A DNA stretch of 47,785 bases from a virus: positions 1 to 47,785 of the IMG/VR virus record IMGVR_UViG_3300025671_000104; one strand, given 5' to 3'. The position numbers and the translations under genes were made by a program. Positions 1-42,858 of this stretch are shown in pieces (position 1 is the stretch's first letter; every line of letters begins with the position of its first letter). The notes beneath the pieces were generated by a model. The model saw only the letters and a program-made list of their open reading frames with translations, was not told the origin of the DNA and did not search any database.

Positions 1-1143
1 ACCTTCTCTGGCGCACGTCCGGCTGGCGGCAACACAGACGCCAACAACATAGGTGACTTTGCCTATCCTGTACCGTCAGGGGGCTACCTTGCGCTTTGTA
101 CCGCAAACCTTCCAAAGCCTTCAATAATTGATGGGTCGGAACATTTCAATACTATCATTTGGACTGGTGTCGATACAGCTTCAGGTAGAGATTTTACTGG
201 GGTCGGATTTCAACCGGATTTAGTGTGGTCTGCTGTGAGGAGTGTTGCTTACGGACACCGTATATATGATTCTGTGCGTGGATTTGGAGTAAATAAAGTT
301 CTATCTTCCGCATCAACTTCAGCGGAATCTTCTTCTTCGACATATGGTTATATGGACTCTTCACTTCCAGATGGATTTAGCACAACAGCAGGTTCAATTG
401 ATAATGACTTATTTAACGGCATAGGTAAAACATACGTTGCTTGGAACTGGAAAGCTGGCGGCTCTGCGGTCAGCAATACTGACGGTTCAATCACCTCGCA
501 AGTTTCCGCGAATGTTGACGCAGGGTTTAGTGTTCTGACTTACAGCCCATCAGGTTCTAGCGGTTCAGTCGGACACGGTCTTGGGGTAACGCCGTCTGTT
601 GTAATTGTAAAACGCAGAGACACAACTGGGCAGTGGGTTTCTCATTGGACAGCAATTAGTGGGGCAAATAAACAGCTTTACTTAAACGGTACAAATGCTG
701 TTGACACCAACAATATTTCCTCACTGACAAGCACAACCTTTACTGTAAGCGGGTGGAGTGAGGTTGCAACGGCGGGTGGTAGTTATGTAGCCTACTGTTT
801 CGCAGATGTTGATGGATTCAGCAAGGCGGGCAGCTACACCGGCAATGGCAGCGCAGATGGGCCGTTTATCTACACAGGGTTTAGGCCAGCTTGGATTATG
901 ATTAAAAATATTGCATCAGGTGAGAATTGGCAAATTCACGATAGCGGGCGGGACCCTGACAACGTGGTAACACAAAGGTTGTATGCCAATACAAATGGTG
1001 CAGATGTAACAAGTACATTTATGGATTTTGTATCTAATGGTGTAAAATGTAGGAATTTTTCTGGTGGCTTTAACTCATCAGGCGCAACCTTCATATACCT
1101 AGCCTTTGCCGAAACACCATTCAAATACGCTAACGCCAGATAG
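1..1143 (+). CDS. Tail fibre / virion surface protein, 5' end outside window
   Basis: The frame is open from the first base, so this gene is cut by the window edge; the visible part is 380 codons. It starts in the segment YLALCTANLPKPSI..DGSEHFNT, followed by FQPDLVW, a pattern I know from tail-fibre or virion-surface proteins of marine phages, where it belongs to a beta-rich lectin-like domain. The same theme recurs later (GFRPAWIMIKN near residue 300), suggesting two tandem copies of the domain. The likely role is receptor contact at the tail. The next gene follows after 10 bases with a GGAG site. A GTG at 223 lies inside the frame and is not the true start. Confidence 0.7.
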   Translation, partial: TFSGARPAGGNTDANNIGDFAYPVPSGGYLALCTANLPKPSIIDGSEHFNTIIWTGVDTASGRDFTGVGFQPDLVWSAVRSVAYGHRIYDSVRGFGVNKVLSSASTSAESSSSTYGYMDSSLPDGFSTTAGSIDNDLFNGIGKTYVAWNWKAGGSAVSNTDGSITSQVSANVDAGFSVLTYSPSGSSGSVGHGLGVTPSVVIVKRRDTTGQWVSHWTAISGANKQLYLNGTNAVDTNNISSLTSTTFTVSGWSEVATAGGSYVAYCFADVDGFSKAGSYTGNGSADGPFIYTGFRPAWIMIKNIASGENWQIHDSGRDPDNVVTQRLYANTNGADVTSTFMDFVSNGVKCRNFSGGFNSSGATFIYLAFAETPFKYANAR

Positions 1144-19753: not shown

Positions 19754-21282
19754 TAGAACGGCACCCCATCACCTTGAACCTCGATCCTCGGAACTTGGAC
19801 CTCTCTGTTAAAGGCAGGCACCCACCACACACGCAACTGTTTGGTTTCATTTTTTGTGGTTTGAAAATATTTCTTACCGTTAGCCGCGTTGCCATTGTTT
19901 AGTTCCTTCAGACGTTCCTGAATCTGACCACGGCTGTAGTTATCAAATCTCTGGTTTCGTAAATACTTCATTAGGGATTCGATCTTGAAGTAGGTCAAGC
20001 CTTCTTCTGTGAAAGGCTTGCCAAGGCTTATCTCTTCAGCGGATTGCGCTTGCACCCGCCCATCACAGAACGCCTCGAGCAGATCCATGAACTGTCCTTT
20101 GTATGTCAGTTCTTCTGGAACCTCGATCTCACTCATATCTTCCATTAGTGCGCCGACAATGTTCTGCCAATCAGCCATCTTCATCATTGGTGGCATCTTG
20201 TGTATCTGTTCCATACACGCCTTCTGGAAACGCTGCGGTGTCTGAAGATCATCTGTGTCCAACTCAACGCGCTGTCCACCCACATCACAAAACCATACCG
20301 GAGGCTCAGACTTCACAACGCAAAGACCTGTCACATCAATATTGGAAACGTGACTGCCGATACCAAACTTCTTTGTCTTGCAAAGAGACTTGTTACAATA
20401 AGACTTGAGCGGCTCCTGATCACAGGGGAAGCCATACTCTTTCTTCTCATGCTGCTGTTGGATCGTTACAATCTCAGACGCTGGCAATGACGGGTTGGCA
20501 AACTTGTTGTTAATCTCTTCGAGCCTAGCCTTCCAGTTTTCTGGCTGCTCTTTCTTACAACCAACGGCTGCGGCAAACATAACTGTGTTGCGTGTACCTT
20601 CGGGTATCCCCTGTCCGAACATACAGTTCAGACAGGGGGCCCAATCCTTAAACTCGTCGACCTGCTCACCGAATGTTAAACCAACAAAAGCATCCGGATC
20701 CACACTCCTCCTGTCAACAAGCTCAAGAAATTCCTCTAGGGACGCTGGCTCTCCGTCTTCTTTAATCGCGTAGCGGAGAGTTTGTTCCTCATCAAAGTAC
20801 GGCAGGTTAATAAAGTTACCCACATCGCCACGCTCGACAAGAATCTGTTCTTGCTTTGGGAAAATCTCACAGCCGCCATAACCAAGTACGGCAGAAATCT
20901 CTGAAGCTTTATCACGGAACTCTCCTGCACTGATCCACTTTGTAAAGAAAAAGAATATGTGTGCGCCGCCAGACTTCGAGCGGCAGGTAACACAAGGCAC
21001 CTCCATCTTACGCAGCTTTTTATCAAGCGCCTCAAGATCTAGTGGGTACTTATCAATGTCGAGGGCGCCAAACTTACACTGGTTGTCCTCGTTAATTGGT
21101 ATAGAGCCTACGCCATTCTTGCCCTCAAGATGATGCTTGATAAGGTCTAAGGTTAGCGGCTGCCTAACGATTCTCGACTTAGCTTTTTGCTTACCGGCTC
21201 GTCGTTCATCTGATATCTGTGTCTGTCCATGCGCTGCACTAAATCCGGTAAATGCAGCCATGAACTTTTCTGCTTGGTTCAT
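19753..21282 (-). CDS. Archaeo-eukaryotic-type primase (AEP)
   Basis: 509 residues. The N-terminal AEP core shows GALDIDKY with catalytic D75 and D77, then RSKSGGAHIFFFF (S104, H108), then EIFPKQEQ (139-146) and GNFINLPYF, an order typical of the primase domain of TOTE conflict systems and related phage primases. A Cys-rich middle (CNKSLCKTKKFG) and a helical C-terminal part follow. I see no fused helicase domain, so unwinding must come from the SF1 or Snf2 proteins nearby. AGGGG lies 8 bases before the ATG. It synthesises primers, possibly with polymerase activity as well. Confidence 0.88.
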   Translation of the reverse strand: MNQAEKFMAAFTGFSAAHGQTQISDERRAGKQKAKSRIVRQPLTLDLIKHHLEGKNGVGSIPINEDNQCKFGALDIDKYPLDLEALDKKLRKMEVPCVTCRSKSGGAHIFFFFTKWISAGEFRDKASEISAVLGYGGCEIFPKQEQILVERGDVGNFINLPYFDEEQTLRYAIKEDGEPASLEEFLELVDRRSVDPDAFVGLTFGEQVDEFKDWAPCLNCMFGQGIPEGTRNTVMFAAAVGCKKEQPENWKARLEEINNKFANPSLPASEIVTIQQQHEKKEYGFPCDQEPLKSYCNKSLCKTKKFGIGSHVSNIDVTGLCVVKSEPPVWFCDVGGQRVELDTDDLQTPQRFQKACMEQIHKMPPMMKMADWQNIVGALMEDMSEIEVPEELTYKGQFMDLLEAFCDGRVQAQSAEEISLGKPFTEEGLTYFKIESLMKYLRNQRFDNYSRGQIQERLKELNNGNAANGKKYFQTTKNETKQLRVWWVPAFNREVQVPRIEVQGDGVPF

Positions 21283-21409: not shown

Positions 21410-22210
21410 CTAGAACGGGATATCGTCCTTTGGTTCAGAAGAAGCAGTGTTCATTTCTTCTGCTGTTCCACCAGAGGTCTTGATCTCACCTTTCTGGAAT
21501 TTCTCATACTGTTTCTTTGCATGAAGCACAGCCGACTCAGGAACTTCTGAGATATCGACCGAAGACACAGCGTAGTTGTACCACGAACCTTTGTCGTTGC
21601 TCTCTTGAACAGACTTCAAGCGCCAAGCGGTCATCCAGATTGGTGGATTGAACAAGCCCTTGGTTGGGTGCATGATCTGCATCCCGGCGCGGCGCGTGTT
21701 CCACTGCTTTGCGATCTTCATCTGAGTCTTCTTCATGTCACAGATCAGTTCAGATGTGCGACCATCCTTATCAACTGTCAGCAACAAGAACTGAGCGGAG
21801 CGAACCAACTCATTACCTGATGGAAGAATCTCGTTAGAGCCAACCCGCTCTGTGCGACGAAGGTCTGGGCTCATCGGATCGATCTCACCCATGTAACCGC
21901 CACCGCTCTCACGCAGTTGGAATTCAAGATACTTCATTTGGTAGGCGCACGGGATAACCACAACCCCTTCATCTGCTTCCCAGAATTCTCCGGTTACAGT
22001 GTTGAAGATATCTCCTGCTGAAATGCCTTTGATGAACTTTGCATCGTTCTTCATTAGCTGTGGTGACAGTGGCTGCACAATCCGCATAAACGGAATCTGC
22101 ATATCCTCCGCACCAATATTCTCAAGACCTTGACCAGCATTCTCGAATGCTTCGTCCATAAAACTGACCACCGAGGTGGACTTCTTCTCAACTACTGCTG
22201 TATCAGCCAT
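21410..22210 (-). CDS. Putative single-stranded DNA-binding protein (DDIPF tail)
   Basis: 266 residues. The protein ends in an acidic linker and the tip DDIPF, the same peptide with which bacterial SSB recruits partners. The body (IPFMRIVQPLSPQL, DIFNTVTGEFWEADEGVVVIP, FNPPIWMTAWRLKSV) belongs to a phage family common beside primases and helicases; I know no solved function. Not an obvious OB-fold by eye, so the SSB role rests on tail and neighbourhood. GAGG precedes the ATG. It starts 4 bases after the upstream gene. Confidence 0.6.
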   Translation of the reverse strand: MADTAVVEKKSTSVVSFMDEAFENAGQGLENIGAEDMQIPFMRIVQPLSPQLMKNDAKFIKGISAGDIFNTVTGEFWEADEGVVVIPCAYQMKYLEFQLRESGGGYMGEIDPMSPDLRRTERVGSNEILPSGNELVRSAQFLLLTVDKDGRTSELICDMKKTQMKIAKQWNTRRAGMQIMHPTKGLFNPPIWMTAWRLKSVQESNDKGSWYNYAVSSVDISEVPESAVLHAKKQYEKFQKGEIKTSGGTAEEMNTASSEPKDDIPF

Positions 22211-29632: not shown

Positions 29633-29870
29633 AGGACACAATCCATTCATCCTCAAAACAATCAACCCAGCCCTGTAGATATTCTGGGAGCATGATCAGG
29701 CCACCATTCTGGTTGAACGGCGTCTCAACACGGTCGCCCTCACCATAGATATCATAAGAAAAGCGGTAGGTTTCGAGGTGATCTCTGGCCTCATCATTCT
29801 GCGGCATAAGCAGAAATACATCCGCGTGGCGAATAACTTTATAATCTATTTGATTAGTCTTTGTTTCCAT
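29622..29870 (-). CDS. First gene of the leftward early cluster (82 aa), likely paralogue of 29066-29272 product
   Basis: AGGGG lies upstream of the ATG, and a promoter-like element (29958-29930) lies 60 bases further upstream, so this is the first gene of the early leftward cluster. IDYKVIRHADVFLLMPQNDE, then FSYDIYGEGDRVETPFNQNG and a short C-terminal end. The N-terminal 30 residues are similar to the product of 29066-29272. First genes of such units often act in host takeover; no evidence here beyond position. Confidence 0.55.
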   Translation of the reverse strand: METKTNQIDYKVIRHADVFLLMPQNDEARDHLETYRFSYDIYGEGDRVETPFNQNGGLIMLPEYLQGWVDCFEDEWIVSYEV

Positions 29871-29929
29871 GTCGTTGCCCCTTGAACCTCGAACCTTGCA
29901 CCTATATAGTTAGGTGACTGTATAAGAGA

Positions 29930-29958: not shown

Positions 29959-30028
29959 AGCACAAAATGCAGGGGCATATAATGTTTTCTACGGGTTGTT
30001 AAAAATAAAAATATTTTTTTTAAAAATG

Positions 30029-30106
30029 GTGTCTTATGTGTCTTATGTGTCTTGTTTGGCTTCCACAAACAGTTACAGGCGAGACACTTACAAGACAGTA
30101 AGACAC
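30029..30106. repeat. GTGTCT direct/inverted repeat array next to AT-rich tract
   Basis: Three tandem 9-base copies of GTGTCTTAT (30029, 30038, and GTGTCTTGT at 30047) are followed by three AGACAC-type elements in the opposite orientation (30082, 30093 as AGACAG, 30101). An A/T-only stretch, with one exception, lies just before (about 30000-30026). The rest of the 29871-30177 gap holds the leftward promoter P1 and no gene. The array sits upstream of the small terminase gene, so it may be a terminase recognition (pac/cos) site or an iteron-type replication origin. Confidence 0.55.
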
Positions 30107-30177
30107 TTTCAACCTCTGTTGATGGTCGCGAGATTGGATTTTTGATTTTAAAAAAATAGAAAGGCAGAAAAAACACT

Positions 30178-30780
30178 ATGGACACTGACGATAGTTTGCC
30201 CAAGAACAAGGGCGGCAGACCCGCTGGACTGACCCAAAGGCAGCGAGAGTTTGCAAAGTTTTATGTTGATGGTCGATGGTCTAATGCTGAATGCGCTCGA
30301 AAGGCTGGCTATGCTGACGGCAGCGCAGCCCAACACGCAGCCAAGCTGCTCGATGGCAGATCATTCCCTGACGTACCCGAACTGATAAAAGAACTACGCG
30401 AGGCACGAGAGCGCAAATATGGCGTGACCTTGATGAATCAGTTGAAGCGGTTCGATGAGTTGTCTCGATCGGCGGAAGAGGCTGGTCAGTTTTCTGCTGC
30501 CATCAACGCTGAGAAGATACGTTCGAGCCTTGGCGGGTTGACCATCGATCGGCGGGAGTCAACGCACGTTCACCAGCTAGATAATATGTCGCGTGAAGAT
30601 ATCGTGGCGCGACTGTCTGCCATCCGCAAAGAATATCCGAACGCTTTCCCAGATCCAGAAATGAAAAGGGTTGAAGATGCCAAAGACAGAGCAGTCACTG
30701 TGGACATCGTTGAAGCAGAATTTACCGAAAAAGAGCCACTTCCAGCGGGTGGAAAATCGGACAGGGGAGGGGATGCCTGA
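30178..30780 (+). CDS. terS: Terminase small subunit
   Basis: 200 residues. GLTQRQREFAKFYVDG..SNAECARKAGY is the helix-turn-helix signature of the small terminase (Terminase_2 type) that binds the packaging site and recruits the large subunit. A helical oligomerisation part (LIKELREARERKYGVTLM) and a polar C-terminus follow, where large-subunit contact is expected. The GTGTCT array lies just upstream. The gene is 2.7 kb from the large subunit, with leftward genes between. Last 104 bases overlap the following nuclease gene. Confidence 0.88.
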   Translation: MDTDDSLPKNKGGRPAGLTQRQREFAKFYVDGRWSNAECARKAGYADGSAAQHAAKLLDGRSFPDVPELIKELREARERKYGVTLMNQLKRFDELSRSAEEAGQFSAAINAEKIRSSLGGLTIDRRESTHVHQLDNMSREDIVARLSAIRKEYPNAFPDPEMKRVEDAKDRAVTVDIVEAEFTEKEPLPAGGKSDRGGDA

Positions 30781-31090
30781 CGTTTATCTGTGCATAGATG
30801 GTGTGCCGATTTGGTGTGAGTTAAAAATAATTAAAAATCGAAAGGTTTCCATCTCAAAGTCACAGATTGCATGGCATCTCTCGCATACTAGGTGTAATGG
30901 CGTAAGTTTTTTCCTGTTACACTGCCCCTCTGAGGGCGATGTATTATTATTTGACGGCGGTTTTGCGGTCGAGTTGCAAGGATCGAGGATCGATGACCTG
31001 CGTTCTGCGGCTCGATGGTGTGGTGATATACGATCTGCGCCCTTGGCGCTGCGCGCCTGCGCCCTAGAGTCGTGGTTCGGGGGTCGATGA
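30677..31090 (+). CDS. VRR-NUC/PD-(D/E)XK-like endonuclease
   Basis: 137 residues from ATG 30677 (AGGG upstream); a TTG at 30671 is an alternative. Visible motifs are E5 (KTEQSLW), FQRVENR, MPDV (D35), WCELK (E48-x-K50) and SISKSQIAWH, the standard pattern of small VRR-type nucleases related to Holliday junction resolvases. It overlaps terS by 104 bases in another frame. The last 35 residues are encoded by a GC-rich repeat and may be a late addition. Candidate for processing branched DNA before packaging. Confidence 0.75.
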   Translation: MPKTEQSLWTSLKQNLPKKSHFQRVENRTGEGMPDVYLCIDGVPIWCELKIIKNRKVSISKSQIAWHLSHTRCNGVSFFLLHCPSEGDVLLFDGGFAVELQGSRIDDLRSAARWCGDIRSAPLALRACALESWFGGR

Positions 31091-31140
31091 CCTGCGGCCT
31101 GCGCCCTCGATCCTGCGGCCTGCGGCCTGCGCCCTCGATC
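30984..31140. repeat. GC-rich repeat tract (CTGCGGCCTGCG / CTGCGCCCT)
   Basis: The 12-mer CTGCGGCCTGCG occurs at 31092, 31113 and 31120, mixed with CTGCGCCCT (31036, 31058, 31099, 31127) and CTCGAT units. The tract encodes the C-terminus of the nuclease up to 31090 and is then non-coding. The same 12-mer occurs twice at 32001 and 32018 beyond the 31206-31931 gene. Composition is unlike the neighbouring DNA. Confidence 0.65.
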
Positions 31141-31205: not shown

Positions 31206-31931
31206 CTAGTGAAGAACGATAGCAATTGATTTAGCTTTGATCGAAGCACCCGCGCAAAGCTTGCATGTGTCGCACGTTGCCCGCCGACCTGCTTCCTTGC
31301 TGGCAGGGCATAGCACCTCTGACCCTTTCACGACCTCTTCAACGTCATTTATGACGCGGAATGTGCGCTTGCTGTCTTTCCAAGCTTGGACGGCCTGCGT
31401 TAATGTGTCCGCGCTGATCATATAACGGCCTGCGTCAACGTCAACGCCTGCAAGGTCGTCTTGATGGCTATAGGCTGTATGGCCGTCGGCCTCGCTCAAT
31501 AGGCTGTCCCAAATATAATTTGGAACCGCTGCGCCGTCGCCGTATGTACCAACCCGAACCATGCGACCCGCGCCAAGCTTTGCTATAGCTTCATGACCCT
31601 GCGCCGTTGGATAGGCGTTTTTCTGAACCTGTTTCCAGACATTTAAAACACCTTGGAATAACGCAACGTAGCATGTGCGGCCTTTGGCATGCTTGCCCGG
31701 GGCGTCTATGTCTTGCGCTTCGCCCCTATGCTTGCAATTGCCGCAGATTGAATAGTCATTGCCAAGCTTGTTATTCAGCATTGGATCAAGGCCGTTATCG
31801 CACAAGATATATGTTTGCAACATGTTACCTGTTTTAGAATTGCTGCTTTTGGTTATAGCGACAACGACAATATTCTCTTCGGGGTCAATTTGTGACGGCC
31901 CGCGATATATGATTGAGTTTTGTGTTTTCAT
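31206..31931 (-). CDS. Cys-rich protein, DUF7227-like
   Basis: 241 residues. Visible blocks are NDYSICGNCKHRGEA, GRTCYVALFQGVLNVWK, MVRVGTYGDGAAVPNYIW, and the end CPASKEAGRRATCDTCKLCAGA..KSIAIVLH. Six or more Cys in C..C pairs suggest metal or Fe-S binding. The pattern matches a family (DUF7227 as I recall) found in phages and plasmids, of unknown function. It has its own promoter-like element and a strong terminator, a stand-alone cassette between two copies of a GC repeat. AAGGGG precedes the ATG. Confidence 0.7.
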   Translation of the reverse strand: MKTQNSIIYRGPSQIDPEENIVVVAITKSSNSKTGNMLQTYILCDNGLDPMLNNKLGNDYSICGNCKHRGEAQDIDAPGKHAKGRTCYVALFQGVLNVWKQVQKNAYPTAQGHEAIAKLGAGRMVRVGTYGDGAAVPNYIWDSLLSEADGHTAYSHQDDLAGVDVDAGRYMISADTLTQAVQAWKDSKRTFRVINDVEEVVKGSEVLCPASKEAGRRATCDTCKLCAGASIKAKSIAIVLH

Positions 31932-31961
31932 GATTTTTCCCCTTCATGAGTTAATAGAGAA

Positions 31962-31990
31962 AGCTTATCGGATTTTATGGGATATCGCAA
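31962..31990 (-). promoter_or_regulatory. Candidate early leftward promoter P3
   Basis: On the minus strand TTGCGA (31990-31985), a 17-base spacer and TAAGCT (31967-31962) lie 31 bases before the ATG of the 31206-31931 gene. Upstream it shares TTTTAGGGCTTG with the element at 33290 and, less exactly, resembles P1. The spacer differs more than that of P1 and P2. Confidence 0.5.
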
Positions 31991-32000
31991 GCCCTAAAAT

Positions 32001-32039
32001 CTGCGGCCTGCGTCCCGCTGCGGCCTGCGCCCTGTCATA
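32001..32039. repeat. Second copy of the GC repeat (CTGCGGCCTGCG x2)
   Basis: The 12-mer CTGCGGCCTGCG occurs at 32001 and 32018, followed by CTGCGCCCT at 32025. The orientation is the same as in the tract at 30984-31140, making direct repeats that flank the 31206-31931 gene. It lies between promoter P3 and the terminator at 32062. Confidence 0.55.
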
Positions 32040-32061
32040 TAAAAGAACGCCCGCAAGCGAA

Positions 32062-32089
32062 AGGATCGAGCACCTTGGCACTCGATCCT
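32062..32089 (-). terminator. Probable terminator of the 32097-33253 leftward unit
   Basis: AGGATCGAG (32062-32070) pairs with CTCGATCCT (32081-32089) around ten bases. On the minus strand the stem begins 8 bases after the stop of the 32097-32378 gene and is followed by TTTCG, then a T-rich stretch further on. The U-run is short, so this is less certain than the terminator at 31163. Confidence 0.5.
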
Positions 32090-32096
32090 AGGTTGA

Positions 32097-32378
32097 TTAG
32101 AAGTTAAACGAGAACGTGCCGTCATCCATAAACGCCACCAGCTTCGTTTCTGGTACCAGCTTGTCACCATTCAAGCGATACTCAGCGGTCGGTATTATGC
32201 TCGAGCATCCTCGTTTCTTTTTGCCGATGGTGATTAACTTGCCATCGCTCGATGAGTCAGGCCAGATCTTGTTGTGCTTGGCTAGTGTCTTGCCCGCCTC
32301 AGTCAAAGACTTTGCAGTCGACCAGATAACAAATCTGCCGGTGGCCGCTGCCTGAGTGTGGTAGTAAATTTTAGCCAT
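32097..32378 (-). CDS. Small protein of unknown function (93 aa)
   Basis: The ATG has AGGGGG upstream and lies two bases after the stop of the membrane gene. The product KIYYHTQAAATGRFVIWSTA, LTEAGKTLAKHNK and KLITIGKKKRGC is beta-rich and basic, ending in DDGTFSFNF. No family recognised. It is the last gene of the leftward unit read from promoter P2. Confidence 0.5.
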   Translation of the reverse strand: MAKIYYHTQAAATGRFVIWSTAKSLTEAGKTLAKHNKIWPDSSSDGKLITIGKKKRGCSSIIPTAEYRLNGDKLVPETKLVAFMDDGTFSFNF

Positions 32379-32380
32379 AA

Positions 32381-32614
32381 TTACCCCCTATTCATATCTT
32401 GAATTGAAAACAAACAGCCAAGGATTGACCAAGGCAGGCCAACGCTGGCGATCGATATCATACCGATGCCGGTGACGATGGCGAACATGTCATCGATAAA
32501 CAGACAGTGATAGCCAGCCAGTCCAACGGTACTGGTGGCGATGATCATCATACCCCAAACGTATGTCATACGCTTGGCGACTGTTCTTCTATGTGCAACG
32601 AATGCGTGTCTCAT
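32381..32614 (-). CDS. Small membrane protein, two helices (77 aa)
   Basis: Two hydrophobic segments at about residues 18-38 (YVWGMMIIATSTVGLAGY) and 42-66 (DMFAIVTGIGMISIASVG) flank a short loop, with a basic N-terminus (RHAFVAHRRTVAKR) that should stay inside. Early-type inner-membrane proteins often act against superinfection or host envelope functions; none can be assigned. AAGGGG precedes the ATG. Confidence 0.55.
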   Translation of the reverse strand: MRHAFVAHRRTVAKRMTYVWGMMIIATSTVGLAGYHCLFIDDMFAIVTGIGMISIASVGLPWSILGCLFSIQDMNRG

Positions 32615-32647
32615 AGTATAGTCCCCTTCTATTTGGTTTACCGTTTC

Positions 32648-32707
32648 GTCCTTTTGGACTCTTCAGCGCCAGCGCTCACTGGCGGACGGTAGGGGCCGAA
32701 GCCCCTA
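32648..32707 (-). other. Three tandem hairpins in the 32615-32710 gap
   Basis: The gap holds GTCC-TTTT-GGAC (32648-32659), CGCCAG/CTGGCG (32667-32684) and TAGGGGC-CGAA-GCCCCTA (32690-32707). On the minus strand the last becomes a TTCG tetraloop hairpin four bases past the stop of the 32711-32968 gene, with no U-run after it. This is more like an mRNA-stabilising or processing element than a terminator. Confidence 0.45.
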
Positions 32708-32710
32708 TGT

Positions 32711-32968
32711 CTAGAGATCTTTGAACGCCACCGCGTTCTTGGCAACGATGCCGTGTTCATCGAGTACCTCGATCCAGACCTTGGCACCGCATGACAACGG
32801 CTTGTCGGGGCTGTATACGAGGCGGCAGCGGCCTTCGATCTCGATCTCGTTCGAGTATGTGTTGGTGCTGCCCTTCTTGATAGTGAACACCGGCTTGCGA
32901 TCGCCAGTCTTGGCGTTCTCGCGAATGTGGTGCTGGTTAACGTGAATGCGAGTGATAGCTTTGCTCAT
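32711..32968 (-). CDS. Conserved small phage protein (85 aa)
   Basis: The blocks ITRIHVNQHHIRENAKTGDR, KPVFTIKKGSTNTYSNEIEI and LVYSPDKPLSCGAKVWIEV match a small protein I recall from many phages of Proteobacteria, of unknown function. The order suggests a beta-barrel-like fold. The leader AAGGGGAATTC-TTATG is nearly identical to that of the gene upstream. Confidence 0.65.
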   Translation of the reverse strand: MSKAITRIHVNQHHIRENAKTGDRKPVFTIKKGSTNTYSNEIEIEGRCRLVYSPDKPLSCGAKVWIEVLDEHGIVAKNAVAFKDL

Positions 32969-32980
32969 AATGAATTCCCC

Positions 32981-33253
32981 TTATGATGCGTTAGAGATGA
33001 TAGTTTTACCGGACTTGATCGTATAGGTTCCGGCCTCGAGCTTCATGCGGCGCACATTGCCCTTGCCCGCGTCGTGCATTTCCTTGGCGATCGAGTAGTC
33101 AATGAACGTGATCACGTTTGGTTGATCGTCGGTCAAGCGATCGTCGCGAACGATCTGGCCATAGGCTTGACGGATTGTTCCGTCAAGCTTGGTGAATGAT
33201 ACAGTGAACAGGCGACCGCCTAGCTGCTCGATGATTTGGTTTCTTAAAGTCAT
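32981..33253 (-). CDS. Small conserved protein, DUF2693/WYL-like beta barrel? (90 aa)
   Basis: Contains GGRLFTVSFTKLDGTIRQAYG, then VITFIDYSIAKEMHDAG and a strand end GTYTIKSGKTI. The pattern F-V-x-F-x-K-x-D-G-x-x-R is reminiscent of the DUF2693 family of small SH3-like phage proteins. It is the first gene after promoter P2. Function unknown. Confidence 0.6.
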   Translation of the reverse strand: MTLRNQIIEQLGGRLFTVSFTKLDGTIRQAYGQIVRDDRLTDDQPNVITFIDYSIAKEMHDAGKGNVRRMKLEAGTYTIKSGKTIISNAS

Positions 33254-41039: not shown

Positions 41040-41362
41040 ATCAGTTTGCAGGTGATCTTGGTATCAACCGTTCTTCCGCAAAGAAACTTTTAAAGAAAGC
41101 CCGTGGTCGTAAAGACGGCGGGTCAGAGACATTGGAGAAATATATGTCTGGTGATTGGAAAAGCATTGTAAAGCCGCAGACCGAGGAAGAAGATGCGAAA
41201 ACTAAAGAGCGGATGAAAAAGAAATCCGACCGTTATAAAAAGCTTCGTGAACAGCAAGCGAAAGAAATGGAAGAAGGCGTTAAAGCCAAGGACGGCAAGT
41301 ATATGTCTTGCGGTGGAATGCGTAAGGCCGTTGGTGGCGGGAAGTTCACTGGAGTTTACTAA
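41021..41362 (+). CDS. Small basic conserved protein (113 aa)
   Basis: The N-terminus LGINRSSAKKLLKKARGRKDGGS looks like a short basic helix, followed by a charged coiled-coil region (EEDAKTKERMKKKSDRYKKL) and an end GKYMSCGGMRKAVGGGKF-GVY. The ending is similar to those of two neighbouring proteins. Overlap with the next gene is one base (TAATG). Likely virion-associated or assembly protein; function unknown. Confidence 0.55.
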   Translation: MAGPRINQFAGDLGINRSSAKKLLKKARGRKDGGSETLEKYMSGDWKSIVKPQTEEEDAKTKERMKKKSDRYKKLREQQAKEMEEGVKAKDGKYMSCGGMRKAVGGGKFTGVY

Positions 41363-42858
41363 TGGGCAACTGGAACCAAGATAATTCCAGCTTCACTGAT
41401 GAGGATATGGATCAATCCTTGGAGCAGGACAAGGCTGCGGCTGCGTTCGAGGCTTCTGGAGGAAATATCGGCGGGTACACCTTTGGTGACAATTATCTTG
41501 GTGACGGAAACTACAGCCCCCAAGTAACCGATATTGCTACAGCTAGAGCAAACATTTCAGGACTTCAAGATTTTTATTCTGGTGCTCTTCCTCAAAGCAC
41601 CTACAACGGTATTATGGGAATCACTCCTAAAAACCCGTATGGGCATCAGGGTTTTTTCTCACGGGTTCTCGGTATCGATCCCAGAAACATTGACTACGCG
41701 ACTGGTCCGGGAGGATTGGGCTACAAGGGCGCTGCCAAAGTAGCTCAGAAAAAGTATGAAAGATACACCAACTGGTCGGGACAGAACCCTCAAGCACAAA
41801 AGCAGGCTTTTGGTTCTTTGTTCGGAAACCCTGTGGATGAGATAACTGTTCAAGGTCCTGTAGCACAACAAGTAGATATTGAAAACATCCCTCTTAATGA
41901 TGCTCTGGTTTCTCAAGGCGCTTCCCTCGCTCTTGGTCCTTTGGGCCTTGGCCTAATGAGTATGGCTGATCCGTTCTCGACTTATGTTCCAACGGGTTCA
42001 AAAGCATATAATGAGCAATTTGATCCAGCTATTAATAAGGATCTTCCCACTTCTTTTATGGGGCAAGCATCCAAAAGAACCGGCCTTGGTATTTCAGCAC
42101 TGGCTGATTCTATAAAGGATTATTTTTCACCAAGCACACCAGCACCAACCCCAACGCAGATTGGTTCGGTGACACCGTCACAGTATGAAACCCGCGCCGA
42201 CATTATTGCAAGAACAAGTCAGCACCCACTGACGGGGGAGACAAGCGCTGCCCCTGTGCCACGGTCGTCAATTTCTCGTAGCCCAATTCAACAGAGTACA
42301 ACGCAAGAGTTTGTACGAGATCCGGCTATATTAGACGCCCTAATGGGTGGTGCTAATCTTCCCGCACAAAGCCCCGTTACCGCCGGGGAAGAACTAATGG
42401 CCGGAAACCAACAAGGGTTTTTCGGATTTGGGCTGGGGCCACTTGGTGACGCTTTTGGTAGATCTGCTGCGGAAAAAAATCTAAGCCCCGAGGTTCGAGA
42501 TTTTCTAAACGAGCACGACATGTCCGTAAAAGATTTGTTGGATAAAGATTTTTCAAAAGTTCCAGATGGTGCTCGTCTTCCTTCAGGGCAAATAATGGGG
42601 CCGGAGTTTAGAACTGAGCAAAGATCTTCTCTCGGTGGCCCGGCAACGGCGAATCAGTATGCTCAAGTAGATTACTCTAATCTAAGTAATGTGGGGGGCA
42701 ACATGTATCAGGCGGGCCAGCAAAAAAGTGCTTTCGACAGCTTCCTTGAGACATTTGGAATGAAAGAAGCAGGTAGACGGCCAAGCGCACAGATTTACTC
42801 CCCCGCCGGACAGAATAAATCTTTTTTTAATTTTGATAACTTTGGATTTAGACAATGA
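41362..42858 (+). CDS. Putative structural protein, low complexity (498 aa)
   Basis: Begins MGNWNQDNSSFTDEDMDQSL, is rich in Asn, Gln, Gly and Pro, and contains a Pro/Thr linker (STPAPTPTQIGSVTPSQ) near residue 250. A hydrophobic helix (QGASLALGPLGLGLMSMAD) lies near residue 190. The C-terminus is Phe-rich (NKSFFNFDNFGFRQ). No catalytic motif. It lies between the portal/lysis and the head genes, so virion association is likely. Confidence 0.45.
   Translation: MGNWNQDNSSFTDEDMDQSLEQDKAAAAFEASGGNIGGYTFGDNYLGDGNYSPQVTDIATARANISGLQDFYSGALPQSTYNGIMGITPKNPYGHQGFFSRVLGIDPRNIDYATGPGGLGYKGAAKVAQKKYERYTNWSGQNPQAQKQAFGSLFGNPVDEITVQGPVAQQVDIENIPLNDALVSQGASLALGPLGLGLMSMADPFSTYVPTGSKAYNEQFDPAINKDLPTSFMGQASKRTGLGISALADSIKDYFSPSTPAPTPTQIGSVTPSQYETRADIIARTSQHPLTGETSAAPVPRSSISRSPIQQSTTQEFVRDPAILDALMGGANLPAQSPVTAGEELMAGNQQGFFGFGLGPLGDAFGRSAAEKNLSPEVRDFLNEHDMSVKDLLDKDFSKVPDGARLPSGQIMGPEFRTEQRSSLGGPATANQYAQVDYSNLSNVGGNMYQAGQQKSAFDSFLETFGMKEAGRRPSAQIYSPAGQNKSFFNFDNFGFRQ

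Follow-up and report, generated by a model that had tools for sequence, protein, structure and literature searches.

An iteron array upstream of terS in a marine phage contig as a probable replication origin, with the primase C-terminal domain as its proposed binder

The locus and its iteron array

The window, that is, the whole 47,785-nt contig analysed here (WIN), whose positions serve as coordinates throughout, belongs to a phage: it encodes a terminase, a portal, head and tail proteins, a family-A polymerase and an AEP primase, together with UvrD-type and SNF2-type helicases and an SSB-like protein. In the phage collection, its TerL comes closest to those of Phage DSL-LC04 and of the Pelagibacter phages HTVC027P and HTVC023P, with a DNA identity of about 65%.

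The array is located between divergent operons, directly upstream of terS (Table 1). The three tandem 9-base repeats beside an A/T-only stretch described in the original prediction were recovered both by direct reading and by repeat finders. That prediction also listed three inverted AGACAC elements; the three inverted copies are present, but the second (30091-30098) is imperfect and does not read exactly AGACAC. It had also stated that no gene explains the array, and we found only spurious ORFs between an 82-aa minus-strand ORF, which ends at 29870, and the ATG of terS at 30178. The motif GTGTCTT occurs 12 times in the 47.8 kb against 6.2 expected, and a third of these occurrences (4/12) fall within the array. 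A conserved promoter-like element, TATAATGTTTTCTACGGG, is inverted at the two ends (29976-29995 and 30168-30181), so that the 200-bp stretch is roughly symmetric; the reverse complement of its right-hand copy is CCATAGTGTTTTTT in WIN and CCTATAGTGTTTTCTGTGGG in some relatives.

Table 1. Coordinates of the array, its flanks and the genes discussed in the text
Feature	Position	Strand	Remarks
Promoter-like element CATATAATGTTTTCTACGGG, conserved	29976-29995	+	points at the array; putative function
A/T-only tract, 28 nt	30000-30027		adjoins the iterons; candidate DNA-unwinding element
Three direct iterons, GTGTCTTAT GTGTCTTAT GTGTCTTGT	30029-30055	+	9-bp spacing; core type TCTTA
Direct unit 1, GTGTCTTAT	30029-30037	+	
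Direct unit 2, GTGTCTTAT	30038-30046	+	
Direct unit 3, GTGTCTTGT	30047-30055	+	
Central spacer	30056-30079		between direct and inverted units
Three inverted iterons	30080-30106	-	offsets 51/62/70 from first direct unit
Inverted copy 1, CGAGACAC	30080-30087	-	
Inverted copy 2, CAAGACAG	30091-30098	-	imperfect
Inverted copy 3, TAAGACAC	30099-30106	-	
Second A/T-rich tract, terS side	30138-30158		direct reading and inverted repeats I4, I9
Inverted counterpart of the left promoter-like element	30168-30181	-	overlaps terS start; putative function
terS	30178-30780	+	neighbour of the array; rejected as its specificity partner
AEP-TOTE family primase (phrog_21866), 509 aa	19753-21282	-	PF22548, 8.9e-18; proposed initiator
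Primase specificity segment, residues 462-497	19792-19899	-	end of recognition-helix region and wing hairpin
Codon of primase residue 470 (K in WIN)	19873-19875	-	residue best associated with array type

Diversity of array types among relatives

A search with TerS gave 80 viral loci, all of them on metagenomic contigs, and further scans brought the number of non-redundant arrays tabulated to 83. Nearly all the loci of the TerS search with enough upstream sequence present the same architecture before terS, with different repeat sequences. In the great majority of the 83 loci the 3+3 layout occupies the corresponding position, with direct units at offsets 0/9/18 and inverted units at about 51/62/70, and we regard this conservation as decisive evidence that the array did not arise by chance. 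The relatives that were read also have an AT-rich tract at the equivalent place, and in many of them the spacer is itself an inverted repeat, for example AACCCTTA-TCCAG-TAAGGGTT, with the loop in either orientation. Several short repeats at fixed spacing next to an AT-rich region characterise iteron-type origins, and here we find 3+3 units whose offsets are kept in relatives, next to two A/T tracts.

Within each unit, the third base is a nearly invariant G, while the next five bases, which we call the core, vary between phages. The core is nearly uniform among the three direct copies within a phage and falls into about 17 types over the 83 loci, named by eye from tables and several of them resting on one lineage. 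All four bases occur at core position 2, where the direct copies show a systematic difference from the inverted ones. Array types are interchangeable without linked neighbour genes. Several phage pairs have different arrays and most of their replication and packaging proteins are 97-100% identical. The first gene to the left of the array was considered as a linked specificity cassette and fitted the pairs WIN/G001 and G008/G009, but it was ruled out by L273, where a TTACA array accompanies the WIN gene, and by L140, where TAACA accompanies the G008 gene.

Covariation between the primase C-terminal segment and array type

The primase gene is unlinked to the array, from which it is separated by 8-10 kb. 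In a column-by-column scan of 14 core proteins, with array types shuffled among the close relatives of each cluster, a single unlinked protein gave a strong column: column 471 of the primase alignment, which corresponds to residue 470 of the WIN protein. This residue was the best of 145 variable primase columns (p = 2e-4 by within-cluster permutation; here as in our other permutation tests, relatedness is controlled approximately). When 341 windows of the 14 proteins were correlated with array distance after removal of the whole-protein distance, the two best were primase windows 457-481 (r = 0.62) and 469-493 (r = 0.60), the next reaching 0.44; DNA polymerase windows went up to 0.44, from 18 sequences. 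A scan restricted to the primase placed window 458-482 first (r = 0.66, p = 0.001), followed by a window at 0.28; only the C-terminal segment, about residues 458-497, tracks the array.

In the alignment, position x of the motif ANGxK[RKYN]F, which is residue 470, follows the array type. Glutamine accompanies ATACA arrays in 4 clusters and also GGACA, leucine accompanies TTACA in 3 clusters (with isoleucine in L157, also TTACA), and histidine accompanies TAACA in 3 clusters (with valine in the distant L405 group of the same type). Lysine is associated with TCTTA when residue 472 is tyrosine, as in WIN and the distant L182, and with TCTCA when it is arginine. Arginine at 470 goes with GAACA, phenylalanine together with K472 goes with TGACA, and valine with N, R or K at 472 goes with TAACG and TAACC.

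Comparisons of close pairs localise the signal. Pairs with the same array present on average 12.8 differences in the N-terminal part of the primase and 2.1 in the segment, versus 14.0 and 7.0 for pairs with different arrays. WIN and G001, whose arrays differ, have identical primase residues 8-381 and 11 differences in the C-terminal segment, and the G030 and G006 primases show 0 N-terminal and 3 segment differences. Five positions (470, 472, 474, 480 and 482) predicted array type across clusters for 14/23 lineages, with 9/23 failures, versus 0/23 from the N-terminus (p = 5e-4). Taken together, these alignments show that the C-terminal segment of the primase covaries specifically with array type at the sequence level.

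Because the association was discovered on the same data, independent support comes from pairs fetched later. Most of these pairs fit, with three array/residue combinations: ATACA with Q in L373/L374, TAACG with V in the group L385/L391/L457/L465/L468, and GGACA with Q in L449. One new type was encountered, TGTTG with T-K-S. The L405 group of this later set departs from the pattern by its V in place of H, and two contigs do not fit: L451 has a TAACG array and a C-terminal segment identical to that of L442 (TGTTG), and L447 has a TAACG array with A-K-S. A further exception is L259, where Q accompanies a mixed TTACG/TTAGA array. A simple search of three distant phages, whose primases are 28-40% identical, found no comparable array. 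Judged by their sequences, L451 (1-12198) and L447 (1-18205) are probable natural recombinants that combine the array/terS side of one lineage with the primase side of another; the breakpoints would lie about 2-3.5 kb from their left ends.

Other candidate partners were set aside. The SSB-like gene (21410-22210), a member of the Pam3 gp34 family with an acidic DDIPF-type tail, is 81% identical between WIN and G001 against 96-100% for most neighbours, a sign of recent local replacement; as a partner of the array it fails, since G019/G020 and others do not follow. The VRR-NUC-like gene (30671-31090, phrog_2165), which overlaps the end of terS, presents several type-associated columns with weak windows, and its association is likely due to linkage because 0.5 kb separates the gene from the array. 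The gene is followed by a degenerate 7/14-bp tandem repeat (31091-31140). An association analysis of ORF families by automatic assignment was uninformative, overlap filtering having lost family members.

Predicted structure of the primase

In the model of the full primase (pLDDT 79), the N-terminal part forms a Prim-Pol domain that resembles the Prim-Pols associated with CRISPR (CAPP Prim-Pol, E 6.8e-11; 7p9j/7nqd, E about 1e-10), which together with the Pfam AEP-TOTE match places an AEP catalytic domain in this protein. The C-terminal 132 residues modelled alone by AlphaFold2 reached a pLDDT of about 95 and present two helices (H57-66, H74-84) followed by a two-stranded hairpin (E91-97, E103-112), the order of a winged helix. 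As this domain alone gave no significant Foldseek PDB or profile match, its assignment as a predicted winged helix follows from topology. In the predicted wing, residues 470, 472 and 474 alternate on the first strand, and residues 480 and 482 lie on the second.

GC skew around the array

The cumulative GC skew of WIN has its minimum at 29902. Since gene direction alone could shift the cumulative skew, we compared third-codon skew for minus-strand genes on each side of the array, and it was higher on the right than on the left in 19/19 contigs, which are related to each other and have few right-hand genes. A skew switch thus occurs near the array independently of gene orientation and is consistent with an origin. 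A skew switch at this point had been proposed as a check in the original prediction. In most long relatives the cumulative minimum lies 2.7-3.5 kb to the right of terS, after a cluster of minus-strand genes, and because of this offset the skew evidence is supportive, not precise. In the window, the minus-strand accessory genes between terS and terL (31206-33253) are swapped among relatives, and their third-codon skew follows the right-hand side, not gene direction.

Alternative explanations

The primase could bind the array mainly as an operator of divergent early and late promoters, for autoregulation or an early/late switch, with the origin elsewhere. The position between divergent operons and the inward-facing promoter-like elements agree with this explanation, which accounts for the covariation equally well, but the binder would be a primase, the array has A/T tracts, the skew switches at the array, and a role at origins has been predicted or proposed for AEP primases that end in a winged helix (PMC5862659, PMC4234260). 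We consider it unlikely as a replacement for the origin, although both roles may coexist in the array.

The original prediction also proposed a binding site of the small terminase, that is, a pac/cos site, as suggested by the position directly upstream of terS and by the product of this gene, a predicted DNA-binding Terminase_2 protein. In such a site the specificity of TerS should follow the site sequence. Here, the N-terminal DNA-binding regions of TerS are identical beside unrelated arrays, both in L072-L076, whose arrays read GTGTAACGA, GTGTAACCA, GTGGAACGA and GTGGGATGA, and in L031, L033 and L034, so that TerS is not the specificity factor. Its best window reached r = 0.16 versus 0.62 for the primase, which is unlinked and does correlate with array type. 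This part of the prediction is not supported, and a packaging site is very unlikely.

Still less credible is recognition of the array by shape, as a hairpin of RNA or DNA, with types drifting through slippage and template switching and no sequence-specific partner. As single-stranded DNA, the stretch does fold into a stem-loop (z = -4.8 versus dinucleotide shuffles) and the centre loop occurs in both orientations, but it has no Rfam match, nested partners are matched no better than other copy pairs, so that nested RNA-hairpin covariation was not supported, the systematic difference at core position 2 is unfavourable, and drift leaves unexplained the covariation with primase residues 8-10 kb away. 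Finally, a host factor that binds the array, with array type and primase both following the host, has an almost negligible probability: two close pairs with different arrays do show their other large differences in tail-fibre-like or accessory regions, but in such pairs the change among replication proteins is confined to the primase wing, the others being for the most part 97-100% identical, a focus that a host partner does not predict.

Proposed mechanism and comparison with known systems

The array is most probably the replication origin of the phage and would be bound by the C-terminal domain of its own primase, with a rapidly changing specificity. This reading agrees with the initiator site or origin of the original prediction, supported here by the covariation of the primase C-terminal segment, the skew switch and the anatomy of iterons and A/T tracts. 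In the mechanism that we propose, the six iterons (three direct and three inverted, which could form one stem-loop) would be bound by the predicted winged-helix domain, whose wing hairpin (the five positions named above) would read the iteron core. The A/T tracts beside the iterons would melt, the primase would lay primers, and the family-A DNA polymerase of the phage would extend them both ways. As the iteron core changes in step with the wing residues, close relatives would differ in origin specificity.

Origin recognition has been proposed as the task of the C-terminal winged helices found on AEP primases of mobile elements (PMC5862659). The array and the primase may work like P4 alpha, pRN1, ColE2 Rep and geminivirus Rep. 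In P4 alpha, a winged-helix domain of the primase protein binds repeats at the origin (PMC4234260), as proposed here, but there the primase is a Toprim enzyme of bacterial type and belongs to a multifunctional protein that both primes and unwinds. The phage primase, in which AEP-TOTE alone was found, with neither Toprim nor a detected helicase domain, falls outside the P4 alpha definition and is associated with a symmetric 3+3 array of about 17 types. ORF904 of the archaeal plasmid pRN1 is an AEP primase-polymerase with a C-terminal winged helix, as predicted here, and a stem-loop origin of about 100 bp with GTG/CAC motifs (PMC4234260); it differs by its SF3 helicase domain, the absence of iterons and a dispensable GTG motif, whereas our arrays almost always keep the G at the third position of the unit. 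ColE2 Rep, an AEP-family primase, binds its own origin and does the priming for DNA polymerase I (PMC4538821). The window phage likewise has a family-A polymerase. Type-specific pairs such as ColE2/ColE3 are known. ColE2 Rep differs in being a plasmid protein with PriCT/HTH (PMC5862659), without a symmetric six-iteron array. In begomovirus Rep, one variable base of the iteron core corresponds to one initiator residue and mismatched pairs do not co-replicate (PMC2974675); this rolling-circle initiator is unrelated in protein and replication mode and is only a conceptual precedent. Lambda O is a phage initiator whose four to six iterons adjoin an AT-rich region of unwinding (PMC7466680). The lambda iterons lie inside the O gene. 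Lambda O is not known to be a primase.

These results provide a candidate origin and initiator for a widespread, mostly uncultured group of marine phages, and tie the proposed recognition of the origin to a short stretch of protein, one residue of which covaries with one base region. Tentatively, and with more doubt than confidence, we suggest that the marine phages of this group carry rapidly diversifying, mutually exclusive origin types, wing and cores being swapped and co-evolving among phages that are otherwise near-identical, probably as a private origin protects replication from co-infecting relatives or satellites; if so, the set could be read as an amino-acid-to-base code for a wing-based DNA-binding domain. 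Near-identical phages whose main differences are the wing and the array offer natural experiments on origin specificity, on replication incompatibility during co-infection and on protein-DNA recognition. Elsewhere in the window, a gene of the structural operon encoding 498 aa (41362-42858) is 28-68% identical among relatives and has no PHROG match.
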